This document shows positions 13,031-36,058 of a stretch of DNA of 41,391 nucleotides, one piece after another. Below the pieces are notes generated by a model. That model searched no databases, was not told where the DNA came from, and saw only the letters and a program-made list of their open reading frames with translations. Source of the stretch: Ruminiclostridium sp. (lineage in GTDB: Bacteria > Bacillota > Clostridia > Oscillospirales > Ruminococcaceae); assembly GCA_017635095.1 (NCBI GenBank), contig JAGBMA010000087.1:1-41391 (forward strand), read 5' to 3'. Within the stretch, counting starts at the first letter, position 1. Each line of letters begins with the position of its first letter. Made by a program: the position numbers and the translations under genes.

Positions 13031-13076
13031 GTGTATGGTGGATAACTGCACACATAAAATTCAATAGGGCTTAACA

Positions 13077-13283: not shown

Positions 13284-13292
13284 AGGTCAATT

Positions 13293-13787: not shown

Positions 13788-13837
13788 AAAGAATTTTTAG
13801 TGCATATTAACCAAATCTGCATTTTTGAAAGATTTTT

Positions 13838-13878
13838 GCCTTTCAAAAAACGGCTTTTTTGTAGGTACTTATGAGAGG
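13838..13878 (+). repeat. 41-bp inverted repeat copy B, in front of pcfB
   Basis: This segment includes a CTTTCAAA hairpin arm, a T-run, and TGTAGGTACTTATGAGAGG (13860-13878). It matches the minus strand of 6335-6375 with about four mismatches in 41 nt. It ends about 48 bp before the pcfB start codon. Confidence 0.8.
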
Positions 13879-13925
13879 CAAAAAATATCGCCTCCCGGAG
13901 TTCATACAGAAAGGGGTGAAAGGAG

Positions 13926-15299
13926 ATGCACGGAGATGATGTAGCGAGTGCCGGCGTTGAAGTGTCAACACAGATCGTCAGCAAAGCTACGGAAATAATT
14001 ATGGATCTGTTGAAGATCGCAATCGAAAGAGAGCGAGAAGCAAGGCGTGACAGAGCCGATGCCGAACCGAGATTGTCCGGTGGCGAGGTGACATATCAGA
14101 AGTTAAAGGCAGGCGGCGAAGTCACGATGCTACCGTCATTCGATAAGAATGATTACGGTGAGTTCCTGAAGCGAGCGAAAAAAATGGACGTTCCTGTAGC
14201 GGCGATACAGGAGAGCGGAAAAGAAAACACGTTATCCCTGTTCTTTAATGTAAAGGATAAGGAAGCTGTAAACGCAATCGTCCAGGATATTATTCGTGAG
14301 AAGATGAACCAACCGGAACAGGCTGAACGAATGATTACGCTCGAAAAAAGCGATGTAGAAGCATTTCAGATGTATTGCTCGGAACACGATATCCCGGTAA
14401 GCTTTATGGAAAGCAAGGACGGGGTCAAATGCATATTCGGACAGACTTATGAAAAGCAGATACAAGCGGCTGTCGAGCACTTTCAGCAGATACATGGCGA
14501 GCTGTCTGAAACAACTATTGATGTGACCAATGGCGATAAGGGAAAACCAAAGATAGTTGTGGAGGACGGTCAGCTCGGAAAAAAGCTGACGATCAACTTC
14601 TGTACAAAGGCAAAGGTCGAAAGGATATTGCAGGACAGGCTCGGCTACAGCGAAGAAAAAGCTGTAGAAATGGCTAATAATCTTGCAGGAAAACTATCGG
14701 ACGAACGTCTTGGGTACTATCTGAGCGGTTCGCGGCAGTTGGAGCAGATGCAATACTACGAAAAGGATATCCGGTTCGATGATGACAATTTGCTCCTCGA
14801 TAAGTTCTCATTTGCAAAAATGCAGCTGCAGAACGATGAAGCCAAACGGCTTACGATAACTGATGATCGCGGTCATTTCGTAGTTATTTCCGAGAACAAC
14901 CACAACAGAGCAGATATAGAACGGAGTATCCGGCAGCACCTTGATGTCCGGGATTCGGAAACGGTCATGGCTATTATGACAAAGGCTGAAAAGCTGGGAT
15001 TCGTAGATGCACCGAAAATATCACAATATAAGGAGTACCTTATAGAACGTGACAGTCAGACATCATTTACGGTCCGCGGCGGCAGCACAGTCGTAAGGCT
15101 CGACCTAAAAGACAAGGAAACCGCTAAAAAGCAGCTTATGGACAGCTTCGGCATGAACGAAGCCAAAGCTGAACGTGTGTTTACAAAGGCGGTAAATCAA
15201 AGTCTTGTTCATAACCTGCTGCGAAAAGCAAAGGAAAAAGCTAAAAAATCTGCGGATACCCTCAGAAACAAGAAAAAAGAGAGGGGGAGCAGAAAATAG
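13926..15299 (+). CDS. pcfB: PcfB-like (DUF3801) substrate-recruitment protein, extended
   Basis: 457 residues. The ATG at 13926 is preceded by AAAGGGG at good spacing. The first 150 residues follow the DUF3801/PcfB pattern (VSTQIVSKATEIIMDLLK ... GGEVTYQKLKAGGEVTML ... FLKRAKKMDVPVA). In Enterococcus pCF10, PcfB works with the coupling ATPase PcfC to bring the relaxosome to the channel. Family members are usually about 150 residues. This one continues with a second similar alpha/beta module (TLEKSDVEAFQMYCSEHDIPVSF) and a long region with a lysine-rich C-terminus. It lies directly before the VirD4/PcfC gene, which it overlaps or nearly overlaps. Confidence 0.8.
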   Translation: MHGDDVASAGVEVSTQIVSKATEIIMDLLKIAIEREREARRDRADAEPRLSGGEVTYQKLKAGGEVTMLPSFDKNDYGEFLKRAKKMDVPVAAIQESGKENTLSLFFNVKDKEAVNAIVQDIIREKMNQPEQAERMITLEKSDVEAFQMYCSEHDIPVSFMESKDGVKCIFGQTYEKQIQAAVEHFQQIHGELSETTIDVTNGDKGKPKIVVEDGQLGKKLTINFCTKAKVERILQDRLGYSEEKAVEMANNLAGKLSDERLGYYLSGSRQLEQMQYYEKDIRFDDDNLLLDKFSFAKMQLQNDEAKRLTITDDRGHFVVISENNHNRADIERSIRQHLDVRDSETVMAIMTKAEKLGFVDAPKISQYKEYLIERDSQTSFTVRGGSTVVRLDLKDKETAKKQLMDSFGMNEAKAERVFTKAVNQSLVHNLLRKAKEKAKKSADTLRNKKKERGSRK

Positions 15300-16831
15300 C
15301 GAGAGTAGCAAAAAAGCCGGACATCATCACTATCGGCATATACGCGGCGCTTGCATTGTTCGCAATATATCTTGCGGCTTCGCTGGGTACCTGCGTGGAT
15401 ATGTCGCTTGACGAGGACGGAAAGCTGGACTTCGACATTTTTGCGAACAGCCTTGAAGCTACGGTATCCGACACCGGCGTGGTGTTTGAATACTTACAGC
15501 TCGGCGGATACGCAACGCTGTTCCCGATATTTACAGCGTTCGGTCTCGGTCTGTATGTGCCGATGAAGATCACCGGCAAAAAGAAATTCCACAGAAAGGG
15601 GGAAGAACATGGTTCGGCACGGTGGGCGAATCAGAAGGAAATAAAATCGCTTCTCGATAAGCCCCCGAAACCGAAAAAAGAAGATAAAAAAACCAATAAG
15701 CAGGATAGTCAGACGGAAACGGAGGTCATAGAAAAACCGCCTGACAGCGAAACAGAGAGCGTTACAGAGATAATTGAGGACGCTGTAAGTACTGATGATG
15801 CACCGGAGATAAAGGTAGTTTCCGATGATACCGAGATATCTGACACTGTGGGCGATGACATATCATCAGCCGAAAACACACGGGTTGATGTAACCGCTGA
15901 CAGCTCGGACGCTGAAAACCCTGCACTACCCTGCAACACGGAAGTCGCTGAAACAGCGGATACGAACATCACGGAAGCTGTTCAACCTGAAGCCCCGGTC
16001 GCTGATGAAACTGCACCCGAAAAACCTCTGAAAAAGTTCTTTCGGACTATAGGAGCTCCGATAATCGCTATCATAGCCATCTGCAAGGCTTACAGGGAAA
16101 AGAAAAAGATGTTTGTTAAAGACAACAACATCATTCTTACCAATGAAGTCAAGATGTCGCTGAATACCCGTCAGACGAGGAAAAACCTGAATGTCATGGT
16201 CATAGGCGGATCCGGTTCCGGTAAATCCCGGTTCTATGTAAAGCCTAATCTGATGCAGGCGAATACAAGCTATGTATGCACCGACCCGAAGGGAGAACTG
16301 CTGCGCTCAACAGGAAAAATGCTTGAAAAGTACGGATACAAGATAAAAGTATTTAACCTTATCGACATGACGCACTCCAACAACTACAATCCTTTTAATT
16401 ACATATACGACGTTAATGGTAATTACAGCACAACGGCAGTAATTAAAATGATAAATGTTCTGATGAAGAACACGCAGAAGGAAGGCGGCGGCAGTTCAGA
16501 TCAATTTTGGGACGACAGCACGAAGGCGCTTCTCGCGGCACTTTGCTTTTATCTCGTTGAATGCGAGGATAAGGACAAGCAGAATTTCTCGGAAGTCATG
16601 AAGCTGCTCAAAAAGGCAGAAGTCAAGGAAGGCAGCGACGATTTCCAGTCCGATCTTGACCTAATCTTTGATGCTCTTGAACATCCCGAAAACTACAGAC
16701 AAGTAGTTGAGGAGAACGAGAAGATGAAGGAACTACACCTGATAGATCTTGCCAATAGAGCAAAGCGTCCGTCGGAATATATGTGCATCAAGTATTACAA
16801 GGATTTCAAAAAAGCCGCGGGTGTTGTATAA
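15296..16831 (+). CDS. VirD4/PcfC-type coupling protein, 5' part (interrupted by the IME)
   Basis: This is the N-terminal part of the type IV coupling ATPase that feeds DNA to the conjugation channel. Homology (TIGIYAALALFAIYLAASLG, the first membrane helix) begins before the first TTG at 15356, and the frame is open back to an ATA at 15296, 6 nt after GGGGGAG and overlapping the pcfB stop; I chose that start tentatively. A second helix and the GSARWANQKE motif follow. An unusual acidic stretch of about 170 residues rich in Glu, Asp and Thr then precedes Walker A (VIGGSGSGKSRFYVKPN). The frame ends soon after KKAAG at the IME junction: VV and a stop are element sequence. The rest of the gene is at 25938-27011. 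Confidence 0.85.
   Translation: MARVAKKPDIITIGIYAALALFAIYLAASLGTCVDMSLDEDGKLDFDIFANSLEATVSDTGVVFEYLQLGGYATLFPIFTAFGLGLYVPMKITGKKKFHRKGEEHGSARWANQKEIKSLLDKPPKPKKEDKKTNKQDSQTETEVIEKPPDSETESVTEIIEDAVSTDDAPEIKVVSDDTEISDTVGDDISSAENTRVDVTADSSDAENPALPCNTEVAETADTNITEAVQPEAPVADETAPEKPLKKFFRTIGAPIIAIIAICKAYREKKKMFVKDNNIILTNEVKMSLNTRQTRKNLNVMVIGGSGSGKSRFYVKPNLMQANTSYVCTDPKGELLRSTGKMLEKYGYKIKVFNLIDMTHSNNYNPFNYIYDVNGNYSTTAVIKMINVLMKNTQKEGGGSSDQFWDDSTKALLAALCFYLVECEDKDKQNFSEVMKLLKKAEVKEGSDDFQSDLDLIFDALEHPENYRQVVEENEKMKELHLIDLANRAKRPSEYMCIKYYKDFKKAAGVV
16820..16821. other. attL core dinucleotide (GG) of the IME
   Basis: On the left is VirD4 coding sequence (KKAA), on the right is element sequence beginning TGTTGTATAAT. 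Large serine recombinases of this family cut at a 2-bp core. Confidence 0.75.
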
Positions 16832-16832
16832 T
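16827..16832 (+). promoter_or_regulatory. Half-promoter: -10 box of the IME recombinase at the left end
   Basis: TATAAT lies 6 nt inside the left core. In the integrated state the hexamer 17 nt upstream (16804-16809, TTTCAA) is a poor -35. In the excised circle the TTGACA at 25931-25936 would lie exactly 17 nt upstream. Confidence 0.75.
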
Positions 16833-16845
16833 ATAGGGGAAATAT

Positions 16846-16885
16846 TAATCACGCATTTGAAAAATCCCGCAAATGCTGATTATTA
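16846..16885. repeat. Inverted repeat in the recombinase leader
   Basis: TAATCACGCATTTG pairs with CAAATGCTGATTA apart from one bulged base. It lies between the left end and the recombinase start, so it would be part of the leader of the transcript from the circle promoter. Confidence 0.55.
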
Positions 16886-16929
16886 TGGGAAATAACAGGT
16901 TACATAAACCAGCCGAAGGAGGTCTATTT

Positions 16930-18798
16930 ATGGGTAAATTCAAGTTCACAGCCCTCTACGAACGTCTGAGCAAGGACGACGAGCTGCAGGGCGAGAGTAA
17001 CAGCATCACCAATCAGAAGAAAATGCTTGAAGAATTTGCGCGTAACAACAGCCTGCCTGCCCCTACACATTATACTGACGACGGAATATCGGGAACACGA
17101 TTTGACCGTCCGGGATTTGTCGAGATGATGAACGAGGTGGAACAGGGCAATGTTTACGCCGTTGTGGTCAAGGATATGAGCCGTCTCGGACGCGACTATA
17201 TCCAAGTCGGAATGATTCAGGAGATATTCCGTCAGCGTGGAGTCCGCCTTATCGCACTTAACGATAATGTTGACACCTTGCGCGGCGAGGACGAAATGTC
17301 TCCGTTCCGGAATCTGATGAATGAGTTTTACGCCAAAGATATTTCCAAGAAGATCAAATCAACTTTCAAATCCAAGGGCAAGTCGGGAAAGCACGTTGCA
17401 AGCTCCACACCCTACGGCTATCTGAAATCTCCGACAGACCATAATCAGTGGGTCATTGACGAAGAAGCCGCCGAGATAGTGCGCCGTATCTTCCGTATGA
17501 CAATGGAGGGCAAGGGTCCGTATCAGATCGCACAGATACTTGAAAACGAACAAGTTGAAATACCGGGCGCTCACATGGCGCGTTTCGGCGCGGGGCTTCA
17601 TCAGCACAAAGTTTTTGATAATCCGTATCATTGGAGTTCGTCCACGATAGCGAATATTCTGAAAAAGCGTGAGTATCTCGGTCACACAGTCAATTTCAAG
17701 ACCGCCAAGCACTTCAAGGACAAGAAAAGTCATTATGTTTCGGAGGATAATTGGGTAATTTTCGAGCATACGCAAGAGCCTATTATCGACCAAGAAACAT
17801 TTGACAATGTTCAGCGTATCAGAGGGAATGTCCGCCGCTATCCGGACGGTTGGGGCGAGGCGCACCCGTTGACGGGACTTCTGTATTGTGCCGATTGTGG
17901 GAGTAAGATGTATGTCCACAGAGTCAATAACGGCAAGCGCATACCGCATTTTACTTGCTGCGGTTACAGCAAAATACCCGTTGGCACAAAATGCGTATCT
18001 TCTCACAGGGTCAGAGCCGAAGATGTTATGACGCTCATTGGCGATATGATACGGGCGATTATAGAGTATGCTAAAATCAACCGTGATGATTTTATAGCTT
18101 CCATAAAAGGCGCACAGGATACGAAAGCCGATACCGAGGTCAGGCAGAAGAAAAAGCGCTTGTCGGAGTTGCAGCAGCGTTCGGCAGAGCTTGAAAAGCT
18201 GTTATGCCGGATATATGAAGATAATGTCAACGGCAAGATCAGCGATGAACGCTTTGCCATACTTGACAGCCAGTATGGACGGGAGCAGTCGGAAAACCGT
18301 GTTGAAATGTCGCAGATTGAAAAGTATCTCGCCAATAAGTCGCAGGACACAAGCGCCGATCAGAAGTTTATCGCACTTATTGATAGGTATATGAATGTCG
18401 AGCAGCTTACTACGGTTATGATAAACGAGTTTGTAGAAAGAATAGTTGTATTCGAGCGCGATCATAAGGGCAGAGCAGACAGCACCCAGCGCATTGACAT
18501 TTACTTCAACTTTATCGGTCAGTATGTGCCGTCGCATTTCAGAGAAGTTGAGCTTACTCCCGAACAGATTGAGGAACAGCGCAAGATTGAAGAACGCAAG
18601 GAACGCCTTCATCAGAACTATCTGAAACGTAAGGCGAACGGCAAGCAGAAAGAGTATGAGGAACGTACAAAAGCCAAGCGGAAAGCAAAGATTGACGCTA
18701 TGAAGAATGCCGAGCGTCAGAAAGATATGGAAAACGGCGTTTATGCACTTGTCTCCGACCTCCCGAAAGCTGTACCGCAGATAGGTACACTCACTTAA
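16930..18798 (+). CDS. Large serine recombinase (TnpX-like) of the IME
   Basis: 622 residues from the ATG at 16930, preferred over an in-frame ATG 57 nt upstream because AAGGAGG lies 7 nt before it. The catalytic serine is about residue 14 (YERLSKDD). Further motifs are DDGISGTRFDRPGF and KDMSRLGRDY, a recombinase domain (PYGYLKS), a zinc ribbon (CADCGSKMY ... CCGY ... KC) and a coiled coil. A long charged C-terminal tail distinguishes it from the outer ICE recombinase. It is the first gene from the left end and should be expressed mainly from the promoter formed on the circle. It would catalyse excision, which restores the VirD4 gene. Confidence 0.92.
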   Translation: MGKFKFTALYERLSKDDELQGESNSITNQKKMLEEFARNNSLPAPTHYTDDGISGTRFDRPGFVEMMNEVEQGNVYAVVVKDMSRLGRDYIQVGMIQEIFRQRGVRLIALNDNVDTLRGEDEMSPFRNLMNEFYAKDISKKIKSTFKSKGKSGKHVASSTPYGYLKSPTDHNQWVIDEEAAEIVRRIFRMTMEGKGPYQIAQILENEQVEIPGAHMARFGAGLHQHKVFDNPYHWSSSTIANILKKREYLGHTVNFKTAKHFKDKKSHYVSEDNWVIFEHTQEPIIDQETFDNVQRIRGNVRRYPDGWGEAHPLTGLLYCADCGSKMYVHRVNNGKRIPHFTCCGYSKIPVGTKCVSSHRVRAEDVMTLIGDMIRAIIEYAKINRDDFIASIKGAQDTKADTEVRQKKKRLSELQQRSAELEKLLCRIYEDNVNGKISDERFAILDSQYGREQSENRVEMSQIEKYLANKSQDTSADQKFIALIDRYMNVEQLTTVMINEFVERIVVFERDHKGRADSTQRIDIYFNFIGQYVPSHFREVELTPEQIEEQRKIEERKERLHQNYLKRKANGKQKEYEERTKAKRKAKIDAMKNAERQKDMENGVYALVSDLPKAVPQIGTLT

Positions 18799-18832
18799 AA
18801 AACAGGCAAATATAGGAAGATTTTTCCGAAAA

Positions 18833-18907
18833 TGGACGGTCTGCACCGTCCATAACGGAGCGCAAAATCGAAAGACAGGAAAGTATATTACTTACCTGTC
18901 TTTTTTG
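18833..18907 (+). terminator. Hairpin and terminator after the IME recombinase
   Basis: ATGGACGG/CCGTCCAT forms a hairpin at about 18833-18854. AAGACAGG (18872-18879) pairs with CCTGTCTT (18895-18902), followed by T's. Confidence 0.8.
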
Positions 18908-18936
18908 TTTATGCGCGGTTTACAAGGGGGCTTTGT

Positions 18937-19239
18937 ATGTGTTTGTCCAAATATGAGAAAGAAACGATATTACTCACATCTGAGGGAGATGATTTCTATG
19001 ATATTCAAGTCTATGACAGCAAGCTGAAACGCAGGCTTACAGAATTTGCCGCGCAATATCCCGACCTTTGCCGGATAATGAGAGAGGACACGGACGGCTG
19101 TATCTTCTGTATCATCGACAAGTCGCGGGTATCTGTCAGACTGATTCCGCCGTATAGCGATGAACGGAAGAACGCCGCGAGAGAGAATGCCCGAAAGCTA
19201 ACGAAAGCGAGGTGTGACAATGAAGAAAATGACCCTTGA
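18937..19239 (+). CDS. Small IME protein of unknown function
   Basis: 100 residues with AAGGGGG before the ATG. I do not recognise a named domain. The sequence has strand-rich parts (YDIQVYDSKLKRRLTEF and GCIFCIIDKSRVSVRLIPPYS) and a basic helical end (RENARKLTKAR). It overlaps the next gene by 20 nt in another frame. Genes like it commonly sit before the DUF3847-like gene and the relaxase in mobilizable elements, so a link to mobilization is likely, though only by context. Confidence 0.65.
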   Translation: MCLSKYEKETILLTSEGDDFYDIQVYDSKLKRRLTEFAAQYPDLCRIMREDTDGCIFCIIDKSRVSVRLIPPYSDERKNAARENARKLTKARCDNEENDP

Positions 19240-19546
19240 AGAATTAGACCGTGCGATTGAAAAGACCAAATCCGAGATCGCGTCCGTTCAGCAGAAAATC
19301 CGTGTGGGCGAGAACAAGTTTCGCGCCGAGGAAGAAAAGCTCCGCAAAATGGAAAGGAGCATAAGGACGCACCGCCTTTGTGTGCAGGGTGGTATGCTCG
19401 GTAAGTTCCTGATCGAGCCGGATATGCTCACCGATGAACAGGTATATGATATTCTGAAACTTGCATTTTCTTATTCGGAAGTGCAGGAGCTTTTGAAAAA
19501 AATTCTCGATGAATACAAGTCGGAAAGCGAGAACGAGGTAAGCTGA
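19220..19546 (+). CDS. DUF3847-like mobilization accessory protein
   Basis: About 108 residues from the ATG at 19220; GAGG lies 7 nt upstream (a GTG at 19214 is the alternative). The N-terminal half is a coiled coil (LDRAIEKTKSEIASVQQKIR ... EEEKLRKMERSIRTHRLC), and the C-terminal part has the hallmark GGMLGKFLIEPDMLTDEQVYDILKLAF that I associate with DUF3847. Proteins like this are encoded beside MobA/MobL relaxases and may be MobC-like helpers of the relaxosome; that role is inferred. Confidence 0.7.
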   Translation: MKKMTLEELDRAIEKTKSEIASVQQKIRVGENKFRAEEEKLRKMERSIRTHRLCVQGGMLGKFLIEPDMLTDEQVYDILKLAFSYSEVQELLKKILDEYKSESENEVS

Positions 19547-19560
19547 AATCCCGCAGTCGG

Positions 19561-19660
19561 CAGACAAGGGCGCAACTATACACCGCTTAGGCGGTGTGTT
19601 GCGCTCTGTCGAGGGCTGTCGAACGCTGGCGCGTTCACAAGGGGCAAGCCCCTTGCGGCT
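19561..19660. other. Palindrome cluster, oriT candidate 1
   Basis: Three successive inverted repeats: GCGCAAC..ACACCGC/GGCGGTGT.GTTGCGC (19570-19604), GAACGC/GCGTTC (19621-19636), and CAAGGGGC/GCCCCTTG (19638-19655). The cluster lies between the DUF3847-like gene and the relaxase. Clusters like this mark transfer origins of mobilizable elements, but I cannot name the nick site. Confidence 0.4.
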
Positions 19661-19687
19661 GCTACGAAGCCTATCCCCGTTAAATTC

Positions 19688-19722
19688 AAAGACCGTCAGC
19701 TAATCCGCGAACGGTCTTTTTT
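19688..19722 (+). terminator. Rho-independent terminator
   Basis: AAAGACCGT (19688-19696) pairs perfectly with ACGGTCTTT (19711-19719), followed by further T's. Confidence 0.8.
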
Positions 19723-19745
19723 CGATGAAATATTACTACGATAAA

Positions 19746-20027
19746 TCAGAATTTACTCCACAATTCCAGTTGCTTTTGATTGTTTTCTTCTTTCTTCTCG
19801 GAGAATAAGAATCGTTCAGAATTACAACCTTGTTTATATAAAGTATCTGCTATTTCGTCCAACTTGGCAGAACCGAATAAATTATATTCTTCTTCTGAAA
19901 TTTCGTAATACCTATTATACCAAGCAATCCAAGTAACTACACAAGCAAGGACATATTTATCTAATTCAGTAGAATAGCCAATTGAATAATATTTATCTCG
20001 ATTGACTTTTTCATTTTCAAGTTGCAT
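19746..20027 (-). CDS. Hypothetical AT-rich IME gene
   Basis: 93 residues on the minus strand, with AGGAG about 10 nt before the ATG. I do not recognise the family. It is acidic and aromatic (VLACVVTWIAWYNRYYEISEEEYNLFG), probably soluble and helical. It is noticeably richer in A+T than the relaxase beside it and points the opposite way, both signs of a separate acquisition. It separates the two palindrome clusters. Confidence 0.6.
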   Translation of the reverse strand: MQLENEKVNRDKYYSIGYSTELDKYVLACVVTWIAWYNRYYEISEEEYNLFGSAKLDEIADTLYKQGCNSERFLFSEKKEENNQKQLELWSKF

Positions 20028-20084
20028 ACCAAAGTCACTCCTAATAAATTCCGATTTGGTTTATCGTAAGAAAGCACACTGCGA

Positions 20085-20170
20085 CCTTTGCCGCCGTAAG
20101 GCGGCATTGGGAGCAGACTCGCCAGCGGGGGCTCCCCGCAAATTCCGATTTACGCTTGCAAGCGTTTTTA
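20085..20170. other. Palindrome cluster, oriT candidate 2
   Basis: GCCGCC/GGCGGC (about 20091-20106), GCGGGG/CCCCGC (about 20125-20139) and ACGCTTGCAAGCGT followed by T's (about 20152-20165) lie directly upstream of the relaxase gene. The last may be a terminator. MOBQ relaxases often have oriT just upstream of the gene. Confidence 0.4.
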
Positions 20171-20235
20171 TAATTATTGCACCAATCTCTCCAAATGTCA
20201 AACCCTGTCGAAACAATTTTACCGAAAGGAGCGTG

Positions 20236-21816
20236 ATGTCTATGCCCTGTCCTCATTACGATATTTCGATAATCAGCCGGAGACAATCCGCAGTCGCGGC
20301 GGCAGCATATCAGAGCGGTGACAGCTTGTTCAGCGAATACGATAGCAAGCGAAAATCCTACAAAGAGAAAAGCGGTATCATCTACACTGAGATAATGCTG
20401 CCTTCCAATGCGCCGCCCGAATTTATGAACCGAGAAACTTTGTGGAACGCCGCAGAGAAACCCGAAAAACAATGGAACTCACAGCTTGCCCGCCGTATCG
20501 TTCTCGCCTTGCCGAGAGAGCTTGACCGACAAGCTCAAGTCGAATTGTTGCAGCGTTATTGTCGGGAGCAGTTTGTGTCTCGTGGAATGTGCGTTGACTT
20601 TGCCCTGCACGACAAGGGTGATGGCAATCCTCACGCACACATTATGCTTACTATGCGGGCATTGGACGAGCAGGGGCATTGGCTGCCGAAAGCCCGAAAG
20701 GTTTATGACCTTGACGAGAACGGCGAACGAATACGGCTTCCGTCCGGCGAATGGAAATCCCACAAGGAGAATACCGTTGATTGGAATGAGCAGACGAACG
20801 CCGAGCTTTGGCGGCACAGTTGGGAAACTCTCACGAATGAATTTCTCGAACGGGCAGGCAGATCGGAGCGTGTCGATCTTCGCTCATTTGAACGGCAAGG
20901 CATAGAAGATAAAATGCCTACCGTTCATTTAGGAGCTGCCGCCTATCAAATGGAAAAGCGCGGAGTGCCGACATTCGCGGGTGACCTTAACCGCGACATT
21001 CAGAGAGCGAACGGAATACTCGCAGCGATAAAGAAAACAATCAGCGGCTTGCACGATTGGTTGACGAGCCTTGCGGAGAAAAAGCAGCAGCTTGAAACCG
21101 AAAAGAACAAGAGCGCCACTATCCCTATGCTTCTGATGAAGTACCTCGACATTCGCAAAGCCGAGCGTGAAGATTGGACTTACGGACAACAGACAGCGTT
21201 ATCTAAAGACCTCAAAAAGATAGCTGATGTTATCGCCTATGTGCAGGAGCGCGGCATTACTACCCTCGATGAACTTGACAGTGAACTATCCAAGCGCAGA
21301 ACGGCGGCGAACGCTTGCCGAGAAAAGATGAAAGGTATGGAGAGTCGCATTAAAGACCTGTCCTCGATACTCAAAGCACACGAAACCATTGAACGCTTGA
21401 AACCCATTCACGACAAGTATGTCAAGATAAATTGGAAAGCTGTTAAAGCCAAGTATGCCGAGCAGCACAAGGCAGAGCTTGACGAGTACAACAAGGCTTT
21501 CCGCCTGCTGAAAAAGTTTAACATCGACCTAAACTTCCACTTTGACGCTTATGAGGGCGAACGGAAAACTTTGGTGTCACGGCGTGATAAGTTGCAGGAA
21601 GAACTTGAACAGATGAAATCAGACCTTAAACCTTTGGAAGATGTACGCTATTACATCGGCAAGGTCATTCCGCTTGATGATGTTCCGGTGCAGACCGAGC
21701 CGGAAAGAAAATCGGTATTGGAGCAGATATGCACAGCCAAGAAAGAACAGTCTGAAAAACAAGCGGTACAGACCGAGCTTCCGATCAAGAAAAAGCGCCG
21801 AAACGACCTTGAATAA
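20236..21816 (+). CDS. mobL: MobA/MobL-family relaxase (MOBQ)
   Basis: 526 residues from the ATG at 20236, behind AAAGGAG. A longer frame from 20002 overlaps the minus-strand gene and has no ribosome binding site. The relaxase domain fills the first 220 residues: HYDISIISRRQSAVAAAAYQSG, the conserved ALHDKGDGNPHAHIMLTMR three-His metal motif (about 123-141), and WRHSWETLTNEFLERAG. The rest is a long coiled coil ending in a basic tail. It should nick oriT and pilot the IME strand through a channel supplied by another element, possibly the very ICE it sits in once VirD4 is restored. Confidence 0.92.
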   Translation: MSMPCPHYDISIISRRQSAVAAAAYQSGDSLFSEYDSKRKSYKEKSGIIYTEIMLPSNAPPEFMNRETLWNAAEKPEKQWNSQLARRIVLALPRELDRQAQVELLQRYCREQFVSRGMCVDFALHDKGDGNPHAHIMLTMRALDEQGHWLPKARKVYDLDENGERIRLPSGEWKSHKENTVDWNEQTNAELWRHSWETLTNEFLERAGRSERVDLRSFERQGIEDKMPTVHLGAAAYQMEKRGVPTFAGDLNRDIQRANGILAAIKKTISGLHDWLTSLAEKKQQLETEKNKSATIPMLLMKYLDIRKAEREDWTYGQQTALSKDLKKIADVIAYVQERGITTLDELDSELSKRRTAANACREKMKGMESRIKDLSSILKAHETIERLKPIHDKYVKINWKAVKAKYAEQHKAELDEYNKAFRLLKKFNIDLNFHFDAYEGERKTLVSRRDKLQEELEQMKSDLKPLEDVRYYIGKVIPLDDVPVQTEPERKSVLEQICTAKKEQSEKQAVQTELPIKKKRRNDLE

Positions 21817-21890
21817 GAATTATTTGAAAAAGCTGATATTAAAAATGAAATCCCTGAACCCCAAGCTATTCGTGTAATGGAGGAAATGCT

Positions 21891-22061
21891 ATGAATAATG
21901 CAATTAAGGAAACGAACACACCGGAAACTCCCGCCCTTGTTAAGACTATCGGAAAGACCACTTATATCGTCAATGTTCACTTCTCGGAAACAGCGAGGGA
22001 GACTGTCGCGGACAAACTGAAACGGCTTATCTCAACGGACTCAGAACTCCGCGAGGGATAA
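21891..22061 (+). CDS. tnpW: TnpW-like protein of the IME
   Basis: 56 residues, with GGAGG 5 nt before the ATG. TPALVKTIGKTTYIVNVHFS followed by ETARETVADKLKRLI matches the TnpW pattern closely. It follows the relaxase and is on the same strand. In Tn4451-type elements tnpW accompanies the recombinase gene tnpX; its function is unknown. Confidence 0.8.
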   Translation: MNNAIKETNTPETPALVKTIGKTTYIVNVHFSETARETVADKLKRLISTDSELREG

Positions 22062-22063
22062 AA

Positions 22064-22095
22064 GTAATGCGGACGGATAAACCGCCCGCAATTAC
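22064..22095. terminator. Bidirectional terminator between tnpW and the Rpn gene
   Basis: GTAATGCGGACGG pairs with CCGCCCGCAATTAC with small mismatches, between convergent genes. Confidence 0.65.
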
Positions 22096-22098
22096 ATA

Positions 22099-22974
22099 TT
22101 ATTCTCCAATAATGTCCGCCGCGATATCCTCGTCCGTCCAGTCGGGATAGTTGTCTATCATATCGGATATTTCAATAAACTGGTTTTTGTCCAAGTCAAG
22201 AATACTGATAATCGTATCATCGGGTAACTTTCCCTTGTGGTTTCTAACAGACGCAACTTTGCTTTCAAGAGCACCGAGCCTTTGCGCCGCACGCTCGTGG
22301 TCTCTTAATTTTACCGTGTAATTCATATAACCAGCCCTCCATTCATCACTTTCCTTGACTTCCTTTACCGCTTTGTCAAGGTCTATTGCATACTTGCCTG
22401 TTGGTGTTTGCCCTGCCATATAACGCAACGCGTTTCTCAACTCATCGTCAATGTCCCCGATAGTGCCTTGTGTGTTCAGAACGATTGTGATAGCTTCATC
22501 ATTGAGATAAACGCTTGCATCTTCCTGACACTGGCGCTTGAATGTGTACATATATCTGCTTTTCTCAAAGAAATCAAATGTGCAGATAAAGATAACATAG
22601 CACTTTGGCAGAGCCTCATAGTCCGCGCTCTTTTTCAGAAGATTGAGATCAAGCACATCGTGATAGTATCTGATGCGCTTAGGGAGATTATCATTAGCGC
22701 CTGTCTGTATTTCCACATTATAAACAACGCCCTTGTCATCTATGATGTGAAGATCAAGCCGGACACCTTTTGCCCGATATTCAAGGTCAATGACCTTTTG
22801 CTTTTCGGCATACTCTATTTTAATGATCTTAATTCCGAGGATATATTCAAGCAGAGGTTTGCATCGTTTCGGATCGGACATTACCGCACCAAACATAAAG
22901 TCGTCTGTTATGGTAAGCTCGTCAAATTCTTTGATCTTTTTGCTTCTTTTCTGCTTCGTCTTATCATTGCCCAT
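22099..22974 (-). CDS. Rpn-family PD-(D/E)XK nuclease / recombination-promoting protein
   Basis: 291 residues from the ATG at 22974; the ATG at 22983 is too close to AGGAG. The N-terminal half has the family pattern: FDELTITDDFMFGAVMSDPKRCKPLLEYIL, then KGVRLDLHIIDDKGVVYNVEIQT with the catalytic Asp and Glu-X-Gln, and RIRYYHDVLDL. The C-terminal half is helical, with the usual repetitive tail. Rpn proteins are DNA endonucleases that promote recA-independent recombination and have been linked to phage defence in E. coli. Here it is cargo or an accessory of the IME, on the strand opposite to the mobilization genes. Confidence 0.85.
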   Translation of the reverse strand: MGNDKTKQKRSKKIKEFDELTITDDFMFGAVMSDPKRCKPLLEYILGIKIIKIEYAEKQKVIDLEYRAKGVRLDLHIIDDKGVVYNVEIQTGANDNLPKRIRYYHDVLDLNLLKKSADYEALPKCYVIFICTFDFFEKSRYMYTFKRQCQEDASVYLNDEAITIVLNTQGTIGDIDDELRNALRYMAGQTPTGKYAIDLDKAVKEVKESDEWRAGYMNYTVKLRDHERAAQRLGALESKVASVRNHKGKLPDDTIISILDLDKNQFIEISDMIDNYPDWTDEDIAADIIGE

Positions 22975-23040
22975 AGGTATCATCTCCTGTCACCTATATT
23001 ATACAGCATATCTCCGAAAAAATCAATAGTTTTATTTGAA

Positions 23041-23082
23041 AAATCACACCTCGCACTACTAAAAGCAGTACGAGGCGTGATT
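23041..23082. terminator. Inverted repeat, possible terminator
   Basis: AATCACACCTCG and CGAGGCGTGATT form a near-perfect stem. It lies between the Rpn gene's start and the next minus-strand gene's end. The T-run is weak. Confidence 0.45.
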
Positions 23083-23109
23083 CATTCTAACGTGGTTATC
23101 AACAAATAT

Positions 23110-23215
23110 CAGATTAAGGTCGCACAAAGTATTCCTATCCCGTAGAATACCCGATGGAGCCCAATATGAGCTTGAGAACTACTTTCAGGACATCAAAAAG
23201 AAGTATGGGCTATAA
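23110..23215 (+). pseudogene. Possible 3' remnant of a lost gene
   Basis: A short plus-strand frame reads SHKVFLSRRIPDGAQYELEN, then YFQDIKKKYGL and stop. It looks like the end of a real protein but has no start or upstream coding sequence. It may be a scar of an earlier insertion or deletion. Confidence 0.25.
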
Positions 23216-23220
23216 AGTTA

Positions 23221-24048
23221 TTAGTATTTAGCCGCTGTTGTGTAAAGATAAACAGCAGTACCGTCAACATAGCAGAAAGGATTTGTGGATACTAGTGTAA
23301 GACCGTAATCTTCCATTGCCTTTCCGTTAGCGTACAGATTTGCTTTGTCGAATTCCTTGACAGTTATCTCAAAATTATTGCTTAATTTCTTGCTTGTGTA
23401 AGTGAGCTGTCCGAGCGGCTGCTTATCCTTTATAAGTGATGTAAGTTCTTTGTCCTCTCTTAGATTGGATTTAAGTTTGTAACCCGATTTGCTGACCTCA
23501 TCGGGAAAATCACCGAGGTCATAGCATTTGCCGTCATCACCGTAGATAAATGCGACTGTTTCAATGAACAAATAGTAATTACTTCCATTGTACCTCAAAT
23601 CTCTTACAGTTGAAGATACGTTTCCGGGATTAACCCCATCTTCCTCACCGCCTGTCAGATAGCCGAAACTGTCAGCGTAATAGGTAAGTCCTTTTACAGT
23701 AACGGTCTGGTCTTTTATAAGCACTCCGTTTTTATAATAGCGCATTCCTTTGGAGTTCTTCACGAATCCGGTGTATTTGCCGGTGCAGATACCATTTTTA
23801 TTGAACTTGTAGCGAATGCCCTTTATAGTTGTGTTTTTGGTGACCTTTACTCCGTTTTTGTAGTAAACCTTGCCCTTTGAAGTCTTCGCCCATCCGGTGT
23901 ACTTACCCAACTGTTCGCCACTGTCTGAATAGCGGTATGTAACCCCGTCAACAACTTTGAGAGTGTCCGCAAACGCTGTCGCGCTTGTGCAGGACATAGC
24001 GGTGATAGCAGCAAGAGCTGCGGCGAGAAGTTTAATTGATCTTTTCAT
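23221..24048 (-). CDS. Secreted protein with cell-wall-binding-like repeats
   Basis: 275 residues from the ATG at 24048 (AAGGA 8 nt upstream). It starts with a signal peptide (MKRSIKLLAAALAAITAMSC ... ATAFA, cleavage expected before DTLKVV). Residues about 35-135 contain three repeats of the choline/glucan-binding style: YRYSDSGEQLGKYTGWAK, YKFNKNGICTGKYTGFVK and LTYYADSFGYLTGG, with KVYYKNGV and MRYYKNGV between them. The C-terminal half is an unknown beta-rich domain. It should be exported and may attach to the cell wall. It is downstream of the IME sigma/anti-sigma pair and could be its target. Confidence 0.75.
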   Translation of the reverse strand: MKRSIKLLAAALAAITAMSCTSATAFADTLKVVDGVTYRYSDSGEQLGKYTGWAKTSKGKVYYKNGVKVTKNTTIKGIRYKFNKNGICTGKYTGFVKNSKGMRYYKNGVLIKDQTVTVKGLTYYADSFGYLTGGEEDGVNPGNVSSTVRDLRYNGSNYYLFIETVAFIYGDDGKCYDLGDFPDEVSKSGYKLKSNLREDKELTSLIKDKQPLGQLTYTSKKLSNNFEITVKEFDKANLYANGKAMEDYGLTLVSTNPFCYVDGTAVYLYTTAAKY

Positions 24049-24113
24049 AGCAGTTATCCTTTCGTCCAGAAAACATATACACAAACTCTTAATTAAACAA
24101 GGATTTGTTCATT

Positions 24114-24194
24114 TTATCTATAAGCTGATGCATTTACCGCGAAGGCTGAAGCTGAAATAATTATTGCAGCTAAAACGGCTGTTATCTTTTTCAT
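24114..24194 (-). CDS. 26-residue signal-peptide-only ORF
   Basis: From the ATG at 24194, behind a strong AAAGGAGG, the frame reads MKKITAVLAAIIISASAFAV followed by NASAYR and stop. It is a complete signal peptide with almost nothing after the expected cleavage site. It may be a truncated secreted protein gene, or a micropeptide like the signal-peptide-sized pheromones and inhibitor peptides of enterococcal conjugation. It lies between the secreted repeat protein and the anti-sigma gene. Confidence 0.45.
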   Translation of the reverse strand: MKKITAVLAAIIISASAFAVNASAYR

Positions 24195-24314
24195 CGTTTT
24201 ATCCTCCTTTCCGAATTATTTGACCTTCTGTTATATATAACGCAGAAAGAATAATAATCGTATTGGTAAAAACCGCCAAACTTGCTTATACAAATTTGGC
24301 GATTGTGAACAATT

Positions 24315-25004
24315 TTATTCTTTTTTAATGGATTTTATAATTTCTTCTGCTTTATCAAATGATACCGTAAAATAAAATTCAAAAATATAGTCACCATTAT
24401 CCCAAGTTAAACAATGATAATCATTCGCGGTTACGAAATACAACATTTCTTTTCCATTCATTTCCATTTTTTTAATACCTGAATACTCGGTATTAAGACG
24501 TGCATTTTTATACATCGATTTTGGCGAAAATGAAAAACTTATTCTATCTGTATCATTTTCATATATTTCCCAATAAAGTATTTCATCGTTATCAACAATT
24601 ATATGTTCATAGTCTTCTAAATTATATGTTATCCTGTAATTATCCTCTATGAATTCCGGCGCGTTTTCATCATCGAAAGAAAAGACATCTGAGTGGTCAG
24701 CATACATTTCGGCTTTCATACCACCTATCACATAAGTAACATATATCGAAGCACCCGTCAGCAGTAAAGCTGTTATCGCTACGAGTAAAGCGATTCTAAT
24801 TCGTTGATTAAACCTGAGCTTGCTGTATGATCTTTCAAACTTTTGCGATTCGTCTAAAGTATTTAAATACGCTTTAAGTAAGGCTTTTTTCTTCAACCGA
24901 TAGCTTAAAGAGAATTTATGATTTGGAATACTCTGATCAATAGAGTCCTCAAGTTTTCTTGCCTGTTCGTCAAGGAGTTCATAAAATAGACTATTATTAT
25001 TCAT
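24315..25004 (-). CDS. Membrane anti-sigma-like protein (DUF4367-type)
   Basis: 229 residues. A cytoplasmic N-terminus of about 75 residues is followed by one membrane helix (IALLVAITALLLTGASIYVTYVI) and an extracellular domain. The domain resembles DUF4367 (SGIKKMEMNGKEMLYFVTANDYHCLTWDNGDYIFEFYF, abbreviated; KAEEIIKSIK at the end). It overlaps the upstream ECF sigma gene by 8 nt, so the two are translationally coupled; it probably holds that sigma factor at the membrane. AT-rich compared with the mobilization genes. Confidence 0.75.
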   Translation of the reverse strand: MNNNSLFYELLDEQARKLEDSIDQSIPNHKFSLSYRLKKKALLKAYLNTLDESQKFERSYSKLRFNQRIRIALLVAITALLLTGASIYVTYVIGGMKAEMYADHSDVFSFDDENAPEFIEDNYRITYNLEDYEHIIVDNDEILYWEIYENDTDRISFSFSPKSMYKNARLNTEYSGIKKMEMNGKEMLYFVTANDYHCLTWDNGDYIFEFYFTVSFDKAEEIIKSIKKE

Positions 25005-25551
25005 TGCTGATCCCCCCTGTCAAAACCCTTGAAAGAGTTGATTTCGCTCTGTCAAGTCTTTTCCTAACTGCTTCATAGGAAATATTAAGCTCCGAAGCTA
25101 TACTATCTAAGGTCATATCATAAAAATACCGCATAAGCAGTATATTTCGCTGCTCATCATTCATTTTATTCAAAGCATCTCTGACCTTTTCCTGTTCTTG
25201 TTTAGTTGTAATACTTTGTTCCAAATCAAAATCATCTGCTACTTCCGGCTGATCTTCATCATCTATATCGAAATGAGCATCTTTTTTTCTCTTCCTGTAA
25301 ATATTGATAGAGCAGTTTCTAATAATAATAACGAGGAAACCCCTCAATTTCGGACGGTCAACTTGTATAATTTTATCGACGTTTCGAACAATTTGTATAA
25401 AAGCATCGTGAACCGCATCCTCTGCATCTTGTTTGTTGTGCAAAATGCCGAGAGCTACTTTGTACATATCTTGCTCATATTTAAGATAAACATTTTCTAC
25501 AAAACTTTTCTGTTCATCGGTATCTACCATTGAAAGATATAACGAAAGCAT
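24997..25551 (-). CDS. ECF sigma factor of the IME
   Basis: 184 residues from the ATG at 25551, chosen because AAAGGAG lies 7 nt upstream. Region 2: KQDAEDAVHDAFIQIVRNVD. Region 4: MNDEQRNILLMRYFYDMTLDSIASELNISYEAVRKRLDRAKSTL. An acidic linker (DIDDEDQPEVADDFDLEQ) joins them. Paired with the anti-sigma gene, it makes a signal-responsive module carried as cargo; it could regulate the secreted protein at 23221-24048 or IME genes. The target promoters are not identified. Confidence 0.88.
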   Translation of the reverse strand: MLSLYLSMVDTDEQKSFVENVYLKYEQDMYKVALGILHNKQDAEDAVHDAFIQIVRNVDKIIQVDRPKLRGFLVIIIRNCSINIYRKRKKDAHFDIDDEDQPEVADDFDLEQSITTKQEQEKVRDALNKMNDEQRNILLMRYFYDMTLDSIASELNISYEAVRKRLDRAKSTLSRVLTGGISNE

Positions 25552-25779
25552 AGTTTGACTCCTTTCGTGCAGGTTCAGCATGTTCAGAATGCGCTTTTAT
25601 TACCTATAATATAGGGCTTAAAAGCAGTAGAAAATAAGATGTTTTTATGCTGCAAAACCTTGTGAACATCGTTATTATCAATTATATCATATCAAATATA
25701 ATATTTCAAGTCACCAATTGGGAAATATATGTATTATATAAGGCAGATAATATGAGGAATGATAAAAGTAATGATTTTT

Positions 25780-25812
25780 GCCCCAACCATAACGGTCGGG
25801 GCTTGTTTTTAT
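25780..25812 (+). terminator. Terminator near the IME right end
   Basis: GCCCCAACC (25780-25788) pairs with GGTCGGGGC (25794-25802), followed by TTGTTTTT. Confidence 0.8.
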
Positions 25813-25930
25813 TCCAATTCGTCCGAGTGCTTTCGCCTTTGCTCCTGCTGACCGTACTCCGTGACTAAGATCATATTCGCATTCTTCTTGATTTTCTGTA
25901 TTCTTGTAACAATTGCTGATTAAAATTTCC

Positions 25931-25936
25931 TTGACA
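25931..25936 (+). promoter_or_regulatory. Half-promoter: -35 box at the IME right end
   Basis: TTGACA, 10 nt before the right GG core. In the integrated state no -10 lies at the right distance. On the excised circle it faces TATAAT of the left end at exactly 17 nt. Confidence 0.75.
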
Positions 25937-25937
25937 A

Positions 25938-27011
25938 GTGGCAACAGGCGACACGGCGAAAAGCATATTGATTTCTACTGCCGTAAGACTGCAGGCGTTC
26001 AACATCCCGGAGGTCATTGACTTGACCTGCTGCGATAACATTCACCTTGAAATGATAGGTGATGAGCCTACAGCGATGTTCATCATCATACCGTCCTCGG
26101 ACGATACGTTCAACTTTATGGCAGCAATGATGTACACACAGCTTTTCGACGTGCTCTACGACAGAGCTAATTTCAAGCACGGCGGCAGACTGCCGATACA
26201 CGTTCGTTGCCTGCTGGACGAGTTCGCAAACGTCGGGAATATTCCGAGGTTTGAGGAATTGCTTGCAACAATGCGCTCTATGGAAATATCCGCAAACGTC
26301 ATAATCCAAAATCTCTCACAGCTCAAAAAGATGTATAAAGACAGTTGGGAAAATGTTCTCGGCAACTGTGACAGCCTGCTGTTCTTGGGCGGTCAGGAAC
26401 CGACTACCCTTGAGCATATTTCAAAAACGCTGGGTAAAGAAACAATAGATACCCGGTCGAGGAACCGCACAAAGGGCAGACAAGGCTCAACATCTGAGAA
26501 TGACGGGATCCTGGGTCGTGAACTTATGACCGTGGACGAGCTAAAAACTATGAAAGACAATGAATGTATTCTGTTCGTTCGCGGCATCTATCCATTCTTC
26601 TGCAATAAATTCGTTATCGAAAAGCACCTGAATTATCCGCTTTTAGAGGACGCAGATAAAAAAAACGCCTATCTTTTGAGCGAGATCAATACGGTCAGAG
26701 CTTATAACAGATATGAGCAGGAGGAAAGCAATGAACTGTATTCCGAGCCTATGGGAGATGGCGAGGGTACATCAAAACAGTCGGAAAACACAGATACCGA
26801 TGATACCGCTATTATAGAAGAGACAATAGAAGGTAATTATCACAACGGCGATACTTATGGCAATATGCCGAAAGAACCGGAAACCGGTGGAAGCATGGCA
26901 GCGGTCATTGATAATGACGTTGATAAGGTCGTTACCGCAGAACCGGTTCTGAAGCCGCCGTTTACGGAGACCGCCGAGGACAGTTATCTCGATGTTTACG
27001 ACAAATTATAA
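25938..27011 (+). CDS. VirD4/PcfC-type coupling protein, 3' part
   Basis: True ICE sequence starts at the GG of codon 25947-25949. The frame then runs DTAKSILISTAVRLQAF, FIIIPSSDDTFNF and Walker B (VRCLLDEFANVGNI), followed by NVIIQNLSQLKKMY and LFLGGQEPTTLEHISKTLG, all typical of the coupling ATPase. An acidic tail of about 90 residues closes it. The GTG at 25938 is only an apparent start with no ribosome binding site. Together with 15296-16819 this would make an ATPase of about 862 residues; as it stands neither half can work, since Walker A and Walker B are separated. Confidence 0.88.
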   Translation: MATGDTAKSILISTAVRLQAFNIPEVIDLTCCDNIHLEMIGDEPTAMFIIIPSSDDTFNFMAAMMYTQLFDVLYDRANFKHGGRLPIHVRCLLDEFANVGNIPRFEELLATMRSMEISANVIIQNLSQLKKMYKDSWENVLGNCDSLLFLGGQEPTTLEHISKTLGKETIDTRSRNRTKGRQGSTSENDGILGRELMTVDELKTMKDNECILFVRGIYPFFCNKFVIEKHLNYPLLEDADKKNAYLLSEINTVRAYNRYEQEESNELYSEPMGDGEGTSKQSENTDTDDTAIIEETIEGNYHNGDTYGNMPKEPETGGSMAAVIDNDVDKVVTAEPVLKPPFTETAEDSYLDVYDKL

Positions 27012-29419: not shown

Positions 29420-29531
29420 GTTTGAAAATTATCATTTTCAAACTGTCACTTCGATGCTCCCGTTTGGAGCAAACGGGTTTTGCTGCGCAAAACCGCATCA
29501 AAGTGAAAGGAGGCGCACCCCTTCGGGGTGC
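29420..29531 (+). promoter_or_regulatory. Multi-hairpin leader of prgI
   Basis: GTTTGAAAA/TTTTCAAAC (29420-29428 with 29435-29443) is followed by a three-way junction closed by TCACTTCGATGC (29446-29457) with GCATCAAAGTGA (29495-29506). Inside are CCCGTTT/AAACGGG (29459-29465 with 29471-29477) and GTTTTGC/GCAAAAC (29477-29483 with 29487-29493). AAAGGAGG follows at 29506-29513, then GCACCCC/GGGGTGC (29515-29521 with 29525-29531), then the ATG at 29542. Confidence 0.65.
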
Positions 29532-29541
29532 AGGTCAAAAA

Positions 29542-29955
29542 ATGATTGAGATACGCATACCGAAGGAGATCAAAAACTACCGCGAAAAGCTGTTCTTCGG
29601 TCTGACGCTGCGGCAATGTATATGTGCCGGTGTAGCGCTGCTTATATGTGTTCCGCTGTATATCTTCGGCAGGAATTTCATACCGCAGGAAATGGTATCA
29701 TGGCTTGTGATACTGATAGCCGCGCCGCTCATGCTTGCAGGTTTTTTCAAGTACAATGATATGTTCTTTGAACAGTTCGCGGTCGAGTTTTTCTACTTTT
29801 ATTTCTTTCCGCAGAAAAGGGTCTATTCCTATGAGCCCGTGTTTGCTGATCTCCGCAAGAAATATATAGCGGAGGAATTGCAGACGGAGATTGCTGCAAA
29901 GGAAGAAAAATCGGTAATAAAAAGACTTTCAAAGAAGCTCTGGAGAGCGCGCTAA
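29542..29955 (+). CDS. PrgI-family T4SS membrane protein (VirB3-like)
   Basis: 137 residues from the ATG at 29542; the open frame extends back to 29422 but only through the hairpin leader. It starts IEIRIPKEIKNYREKLFFGLTLRQCICAGVALLICVPLYI, the PrgI signature, with two membrane helices (GVALLICVPLYIFG and WLVILIAAPLMLAGFF), then a cytoplasmic tail. In Gram-positive ICEs PrgI takes the place of VirB3, and its gene precedes the VirB4 ATPase, as here. Confidence 0.85.
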   Translation: MIEIRIPKEIKNYREKLFFGLTLRQCICAGVALLICVPLYIFGRNFIPQEMVSWLVILIAAPLMLAGFFKYNDMFFEQFAVEFFYFYFFPQKRVYSYEPVFADLRKKYIAEELQTEIAAKEEKSVIKRLSKKLWRAR

Positions 29956-29981
29956 ATGCGGTCTCGGAAAGGAAATGTTGA

Positions 29982-32936: not shown

Positions 32937-32949
32937 GGAGATGTGATAA

Positions 32950-34920: not shown

Positions 34921-34922
34921 AT

Positions 34923-35183
34923 TTGTTTGATTATTTCAGGTCGAGGAAACACAGCGGCGAGGTATCCGATAAGCGAAAACTGATAAGCAAGATAATAGTC
35001 GCGGTCGTGCTGATCGCGGGGTTGGTTATCGGGTTCGTAACGTCCGGCAGCACTGAAACTGAGGTGAACATTGCAGATGTGTTCAGTTTCCGGTTCAGTA
35101 TCGTGGACGCGATAATAATTGTCGGACTTGTTATCGCATACATCGTTATTCGTATCAGCAGGAGGCGAAACGGTGGAAAATAA
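34923..35183 (+). CDS. Small two-helix membrane protein
   Basis: 86 residues from a TTG at 34923; GGGGGTGG in the end of the previous gene is the ribosome binding site. Two hydrophobic helices (LISKIIVAVVLIAGLVIGFV and VDAIIIVGLVIAYIVIRI) are joined by an extracellular loop (TSGSTETEVNIADVFSFRF). The end overlaps the next gene. Function unknown; part of the T4SS operon. Confidence 0.7.
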   Translation: MFDYFRSRKHSGEVSDKRKLISKIIVAVVLIAGLVIGFVTSGSTETEVNIADVFSFRFSIVDAIIIVGLVIAYIVIRISRRRNGGK

Positions 35184-35589
35184 GAATGAGAAATACAAGG
35201 AGGCTATTAAAAAATGCGACCAGCTCATAGAAAGTACCCGTAGATACCTTGAACATCACAGGAAAAGGCTGCTTTGCTATGAGCGTAAAAAACGCAGGAT
35301 AGAGAAGCTCATGGATCAGAATCAGGGTACGCGCCTTAATGGTGCTGTAAAGGAGCAGGACATTGATGTTGAAGCGCTTCTCGAAGCTATTAAAAAGGGC
35401 GAGCTCGACGGCTTCAAGCGTAAGCCGAATAAGGAAGATACCGCAGATTCAGCGGAGGTATCAGATACAGACAAATCCGATGATACTGCGGTCACGGAAA
35501 ATACAACAAATACAGAAAACAATGAAAATACGGAGGAAAAAGAACATGGGAATAGTAAGCATAAAGAAGATACAGGAAGCACTGGTTGA
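35173..35589 (+). CDS. DUF4315-like coiled-coil protein
   Basis: 138 residues from a GTG at 35173, with AGGAGG upstream inside the previous gene. The first 90 residues are helical and charged (NKNEKYKEAIKKCDQLIEST ... CYERKKRRIEKLMDQN ... VEALLEAIKKGEL), the pattern I associate with DUF4315. The rest is a low-complexity acidic tail (TENTTNTENNENTEEKEHG). It overlaps the next gene by 44 nt. Confidence 0.65.
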   Translation: MENKNEKYKEAIKKCDQLIESTRRYLEHHRKRLLCYERKKRRIEKLMDQNQGTRLNGAVKEQDIDVEALLEAIKKGELDGFKRKPNKEDTADSAEVSDTDKSDDTAVTENTTNTENNENTEEKEHGNSKHKEDTGSTG

Positions 35590-36046: not shown

Positions 36047-36058
36047 GGAGGGATAGCA

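Follow-up and report, generated by a model that had tools for sequence, protein, structure and literature searches.

Can a mobile element that interrupts a transfer gene of another mobile element leave it again without a trace? This question is raised by a stretch of DNA of 41,391 bp from Ruminiclostridium sp., hereafter the window, i.e. the whole of contig C8 (1-41391) of a draft genome of 3.83 Mb in 236 contigs (98.3% complete, 4.18% contamination), where the gene of the coupling protein VirD4 of an integrative and conjugative element (ICE) is divided in two by an insertion. The initial annotation had proposed that the insertion is an integrative and mobilizable element (IME) that can restore the gene exactly. 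Here, we have compared the junctions of the insertion with uninterrupted VirD4 genes and with the junctions of related elements, and have found exact junctions, a natural uninterrupted counterpart of the split gene and many relatives that occupy the same codon. The explanation that we regard as probable is that an IME of the TnpX type has integrated at the GG of a VirD4 glycine codon, and that its excision would restore the gene and would join, in the excised circle, a promoter for the recombinase; the regulation of excision is treated here as a hypothesis.

The split VirD4 gene and its uninterrupted counterpart

The two parts of the split gene, both on the forward strand, fit one and the same profile: the left part (15296..16821) matches positions 1-202 and the right part (25947..27011) positions 206-441 of the 442 positions of NCBIfam NF045973 (VirD4-like, CD1115 family), while Pfam T4SS-DNA_transf is matched at its positions 17-185 by the left part (1.1e-25) and at 220-443 by the right part, which also matches TraG-D_C (1.4e-36). 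The motif GSGSGKS, which we take to be Walker A, lies within the left part, and LLDEFAN, presumably the Walker B stretch, within the right part. The left part ends with the codons AAA AAA GCC GCG followed by GG, which is the core of the left junction, attL (16820..16821, forward strand); the right part opens with GG, the core of the right junction, attR (25947..25948, forward strand), and continues as C GAC ACG GCG (GDTAKSIL). The GG at which the element is inserted opens a conserved glycine codon of VirD4, as its first and second bases; this codon is located between Walker A and Walker B, in a context that is typically K-K/L-A-A-Gly-D/K-T-A-K-S. The points at which the initial annotation had VirD4 stop and resume, as well as the separation of the Walker motifs, are correct to within the shared GG. 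As it had also predicted, joining the flanks at the GG gives an in-frame GGC glycine codon; the joined gene has 842 codons when read from TTG 15356 (488 codons from the left part and 354 from the right part), and the proposed length of about 862 residues is reached with a start at ATA 15296. The latter start is assigned to the left part by homology: in the comparison of seven homologs, ATG is found at the start in L034, L035 and L045, where the window has ATA. In the same comparison, L048 has CTG, while L052, L059 and L061 share the ATA of the window.

A scan with the right part of VirD4 has identified 29 loci, 26 of which cover the site. The two parts of VirD4 meet without an insertion in 22 of the 29 loci, and L056 and L057, which are diverged, also read through; among the remaining five, L060 carries the right end of the IME, L050 shows decay of a different kind, and L051, L054 and L058 stop short of the site. 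L050 was considered as a second occupied site and was rejected, its left flank breaking near KDFKKAA in a shifted frame, without an IME end. A GGN glycine codon occurs at the junction in 21 of the 24 uninterrupted genes (the exceptions are L053, L056 and L057), and the proposal thus withstands the test that the initial annotation had named, by which intact VirD4 genes of related ICEs that differ at the junction would refute it.

The natural counterpart of the restored gene is L061, which is contiguous exactly at the site. The 60 bases before the site are all identical to those of the window (60/60), after which L061 runs on as GGCGACACGGCGAA; in the BLAST alignment, L061 brings window positions 13057-16821 (94.4% identity) next to positions 25947-26225 (87.5%), with an overlap of 2 bp. 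Both the 2-bp GG core, without loss or gain of bases, and the seamless restoration of VirD4 that had been expected from precise excision are supported by this gene. On another contig of the same genome, L060 carries the right part of the IME (92.3% identity over an alignment of 3,454 bp) together with its right junction, 364 of the 400 bp of the right end of the element being identical, and the genome also holds a recombinase fragment that is 88% identical to the recombinase of the window. On the left side, window positions 16600-17000 match four of the five related genomes that were tried, in each case only up to 16821, the same point at which the homology to L061 stops, while G299 gave no match. 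The split is not due to chance, because the independent L061 is contiguous at this exact point and L060 carries the same right junction.

Insertions of another kind also occur in this gene. In L059 (10306-10385), from another genome, a group II intron (RF02004, 61.7 bits) interrupts the same VirD4 at Walker B (LLDEFAN), L060 has a match to the same intron family just below the cutoff (32.7 bits), and the beginning of this intron is also found at the end of L061; VirD4 is therefore a target of both DNA-level and RNA-level removable insertions.

A family of elements at one VirD4 codon

Recombinase relatives were searched in 297 genomes of the same family, 164 of which gave a match at E <= 1e-60; since at most four candidates per genome were scored, the counts are lower bounds. 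At least 19 relatives at 55-62% identity have been found besides the recombinase of the window, all of which were included in the analysis of target sites, while L080 (44%) and the other matches at 36-47% were left out. Several copies per genome occur in G140, G151, G171, G244 and G020, among others. Whether related elements target the same codons, a question raised by the initial annotation, can now be answered: in 10 of the 19 relatives, VirD4 is split at the same glycine codon, as read on both sides (L064, L065/L096, L068, L069/L097, L071/L094, L072/L095, L074, L075, L076 and L077/L102), and in 4 of the 19, as read on one side, i.e. on the left in L067, L070 and L014, and on the right in L078. 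In these one-sided cases, the right end was not found (L067), the right flank is not VirD4 (L070), the contig ends (L014) or the left side is rearranged (L078). Three relatives are located outside VirD4 (L063, L066 and L013), and L073 and L079 are unassigned to a site. The VirD4 genes that are hit by the relatives are 30-49% identical to the left part and 45-55% identical to the right part of the gene of the window, over the matched stretches, so that the shared target codon spans genes that are 30-55% alike over these stretches. In Monoglobus pectinilyticus (NZ_OY725736.1) the same codon is split, as read on both sides, and in a plasmid of Kurthia gibsonii the left side lies at the same codon, the right end not having been found.

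The flank of L013, although outside VirD4, imitates the VirD4 codons (GATAAACTCGCCGCAGG), and we therefore infer that the recombinase probably recognises a DNA sequence and not the gene. The related IMEs L066/L100, L063 and L013 are located at other GG sites outside VirD4, that of L066 being apparently a hairpin-like intergenic stretch. In L070/L093, a VirD4 left flank is combined with an unrelated right flank, which suggests a rearrangement between IME ends.

In nine of the ten two-sided elements that were measured on both sides (the window, L064, L065, L068, L071, L072, L074, L075 and L076), the conserved stretch has an open frame in each of the two VirD4 parts, which suits a recent or recurrent restoration of VirD4, without being proof of it. 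Shorter frames are seen on the left in L064 (222 codons) and L065 (223 codons), against 355-423 in the other relatives, and on the right in L064 (194 codons), against 266-295; these three parts may therefore be truncated, which weighs against a simple interpretation of the open frames. The right frame of L077 has 207 codons, and the left part of L069 has only 74 open codons, followed by a group II intron (16165-18842; RF02004 at 152 bits and RF00029 at 58.5 bits).

The inserted element and its predicted circle

The predicted excised length, from GG to GG, is 9,127 bp. The insert contains its own recombinase and its own relaxase and has no mating-pore genes among its main open reading frames (ORFs), and it lies inside the VirD4 gene of an ICE, as do the IMEs that target traG; it is accordingly classed as an IME, as in the initial annotation. 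The large serine recombinase (16930..18798, forward strand) has the domains Resolvase, Recombinase and Zn_ribbon_recom, i.e. those of the TnpX/TndX type, together with DUF4368. Its ORF is listed from 16873, but the likely start is ATG 16930, with AGGAGG ahead of it at 16917-16922. By this domain content we assign the element to the TnpX type; we do not call it a Tn4451, because its core is GG, against the GA that is listed for Tn4451. We regard GA as a feature of Tn4451 itself and not of the wider kind, given that the description of Tn6104 mentions just a 2-bp repeat.

The two ends of the element carry the halves of a putative promoter. At the right end, 10 nt lie between the -35-like hexamer TTGACA (25931..25936, forward strand) and the GG; at the left end, 5 nt lie between the GG and the -10-like hexamer TATAAT (16827..16832, forward strand). 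If the joint of the circle retains a single GG, the two hexamers would be separated by a spacer of 10+2+5 = 17 bp and would read toward the recombinase gene, whereas in the integrated state, the hexamer that is located 17 nt upstream of TATAAT is TTTCAA, with three of the six consensus bases. In the linear window, with both strands counted together, a site with 12 of the 12 consensus bases occurs once, and sites with at least 11 occur seven times, that one included. The comparison of all 13 elements with both ends read (the window, L064, L065, L066, L068-L072 and L074-L077) has revealed that the joint, at fixed offsets, scores 9-12 of 12 in each of them (13/13), whereas attL scores 6-9 and attR 5-10 in the same elements. 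The right ends of 7 of the 12 relatives were located through VirD4 alone (L064, L065, L068, L069, L074, L075 and L076), and those of L071, L072 and L077 also lie at a VirD4 match. The table of left ends used a pattern that contains the -10-like stretch, most left junctions having been identified before it; a match of this pattern in L073, at a displaced recombinase start, was not taken as an end.

Ahead of the recombinase gene, a strong hairpin at the left end of L064-L072 and L074-L076 overlaps the -10-like hexamer. Its energy is -23 to -40 kcal/mol in the 12 relatives that were folded, as compared with -6 to -19 kcal/mol when folding begins at a guessed start; the hairpin of the window is weaker and hardly dependent on the start (-18.8 vs -15.9), and the T-run is absent in L074-L076. 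It is thus no more than an idea that this terminator-like hairpin would silence read-through and would be broken in transcripts that start in the circle, where part of the 5' arm would be missing.

The rest of the insert begins with a small ORF without a Pfam family (18937..19239, forward strand), a DUF3847 protein (19214..19546, forward strand; Pfam 1.4e-19) and the MobA/MobL (MobQ) relaxase, the listed ORF of which (20002..21816, forward strand; Pfam 6.7e-89; NF041496 MobQ at 232 bits, cutoff 200) has its MobQ match starting at residue 81. The cargo genes follow on the reverse strand: a protein of the Rpn/PD-(D/E)XK family (22099..22983), a protein with a DUF4179 match under the curated cutoff (23221..24084), a DUF4367 protein (24315..25004) and an extracytoplasmic function (ECF) sigma factor (24997..25581), next to which the DUF4367 protein is, by its position, presumably anti-sigma-like. 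No resistance family is found among the matches listed for the ORFs of the insert. Outside the insert, the transfer region of the ICE continues downstream (29422..38140, forward strand) with PrgI, a TraG P-loop (VirB4-like) ATPase and a topoisomerase. At 4281-6041, on the reverse strand, lies another large serine recombinase, which has the same four domains and possibly belongs to the ICE itself or to another element, and a ParE-like toxin lies next to a Phd/YefM-like antitoxin (38176-38771, reverse strand), the match of the latter being under the curated cutoff. Rfam gave 0 matches on the window at its gathering cutoffs.

A probably removable insertion, its alternatives and comparable systems

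In the mechanism that we favour, the large serine recombinase of the IME would insert the element at the GG core, and recombination of GG with GG would make the VirD4 frame whole and release a circle of 9,127 bp. The circle would bring TTGACA and TATAAT to a distance of 17 bp, so that the recombinase gene would be switched on; the MobQ relaxase could then use the channel of the rebuilt coupling protein for the transfer of the circle, and after transfer the IME would be integrated by its recombinase at a VirD4 site of the recipient. The first recombinase molecules would most likely be supplied by transcription that reads through from the transfer genes of the ICE, because the integrated recombinase gene has only the -10-like hexamer and is located just downstream of the truncated virD4, in the same direction.

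Several observations weigh against this explanation. In the genome of the window, among the 40 of 55 candidates that were scored, only the occupied copy was found, with neither a circle nor an empty allele, and in the genome of L060 and L061 the left junction of the IME was not found, window positions 16600-17000 being matched only up to 16821. The attR maxima occur in L066 (10) and L070 (9), where the right flank is not VirD4 and the -35 meets a fair -10; besides, the right ends of these two elements rest on a pattern that contains the hexamer. Because the bases that neighbour the hexamers (TGATTAAAA..TCC) are conserved too, the conservation of the hexamers may partly reflect binding sites of the recombinase; in L077/L102, the neighbouring bases differ and TTGACA is retained. 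The 13 elements, furthermore, share ancestry and are not 13 independent cases.

An artificial joining of unrelated contigs, which a draft of this fragmentation and contamination might suggest, is ruled out in practice by the right junction in L060, an independent genome, and by further genomes in which VirD4 is split at this codon. It is also improbable that the IME is an immobile remnant that no longer excises, the ICE being dead: the failure to find an excised form among the scored candidates of the window's genome would fit a remnant, and many defective IMEs are described for ICEs of Streptococcus suis (PMC7168690), but the frames of the recombinase, the relaxase and the two VirD4 parts are all open and contain their domains, both ends of the element keep features that are common to the relatives, and the closely similar recombinase fragment occurs in a second genome. 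We find the arguments about evenly balanced for an IME whose recombinase recognises conserved VirD4 DNA as a target that many ICEs offer and that the cell can lose without harm, with rare, stochastic excision, a mostly crippled ICE and no gating of transfer. The three of 19 relatives at other GG-core sites, including L013 at its codon look-alike, fit this possibility, as does the occupation of only 1 of the 26 VirD4 homologs that cover the site by such an IME. TnpX was reportedly found in a 2004 study to be the sole transposon protein needed for transposition, and, TnpX alone being sufficient, no directionality factor need control excision. In S. suis, an IME in the ICE gene SNF2 is described as not excising while the ICE was transferred (PMC7168690). 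The open VirD4 parts in nine of ten two-sided elements speak against this possibility, although recency alone could also explain them.

Rather unlikely, in our judgement, is the further step that excision is a regulated lock, which is the reading of the initial annotation and in which induction of the ICE, by read-through, would trigger the excision of the IME, and one event would rebuild the coupling protein, make the IME circle and assemble the recombinase promoter, so that the channel would exist only in cells that hold a transfer-ready circle. A regulation of this kind has been proposed in print for IMEs in traG (Coluzzi 2017, PMC5357655), and it agrees with the recombinase being co-oriented with the truncated virD4 and located downstream of it, both in the window and in those relatives whose left side lies in VirD4 at the codon, as well as with promoter halves that would meet only in the circle. 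However, the orientation is set by the asymmetric site and is not independent evidence, and another VirD4-like gene in the genome of the window (L002, 33% identity) weighs against regulated gating, since the IME need not depend on the channel of the split VirD4. If the proposal were true, a cell could pass on the ICE only if it also contained an IME ready for transfer, and the same logic would apply to the entire family, whose target is a single VirD4 codon in distant ICEs. The exact junctions, the uninterrupted counterpart, the shared codon and the promoter halves that the circle would join make the hypothesis of Coluzzi 2017 easy to test. For annotation, a VirD4 that is called truncated in such ICEs may be reversibly interrupted.

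Excision by a serine recombinase restores an interrupted host gene in the skin element and in the comK prophage, in response to developmental or infection cues; there, the restored genes are those of the host, whereas here the interrupted gene belongs to another mobile element. In Tn4451/Tn4453, the circular intermediate reportedly forms a promoter for the gene of the large resolvase TnpX (Lyras and Rood 2000). Numerous GA sites are described for Tn4451/Tn4453 (PMC5704250), in contrast with the GG core and the strong preference for VirD4 that we have found here. Tn6104, located inside an ICE ORF of Tn6103 in C. difficile R20291, resembles the IME of the window, as described, in its TnpX-related recombinase, 2-bp repeat, mobA/mobL gene and sigma-factor-like cargo (PMC3158075), and its target is traG/VirD4 according to the table of Guedon 2017 (PMC5704250); it differs in its ICE and in its length of 15.6 kb, and the likeness is drawn from its description, at the gene level. 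A circular form of Tn6104 was detected, and transfer of Tn6103 was not, possibly owing to insertions, as Brouwer 2011 reports (PMC3158075).

The streptococcal elements IME_Sco1050_traG_site1/site2 are likewise serine-integrase IMEs inside traG (VirD4) (PMC5704250, PMC5357655); their host ICEs belong to the Tn5252 superfamily, and they too are likened to the window at the gene level. IMEs in traG are also described in Tn1549-type ICEs of S. suis (PMC7168690). For the traG IMEs with a serine integrase, Coluzzi 2017 proposed that excision on induction restores conjugation, and compared this with prophages, for which Kunkel 1990 and Rabinovich 2012 are cited (PMC5357655). A non-exhaustive literature search has found no published report of this VirD4 codon as a family-wide IME target. 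The kind of arrangement is therefore already known; new here are the codon that is shared by a whole family, the natural uninterrupted counterpart of the split gene and the paired promoter halves.

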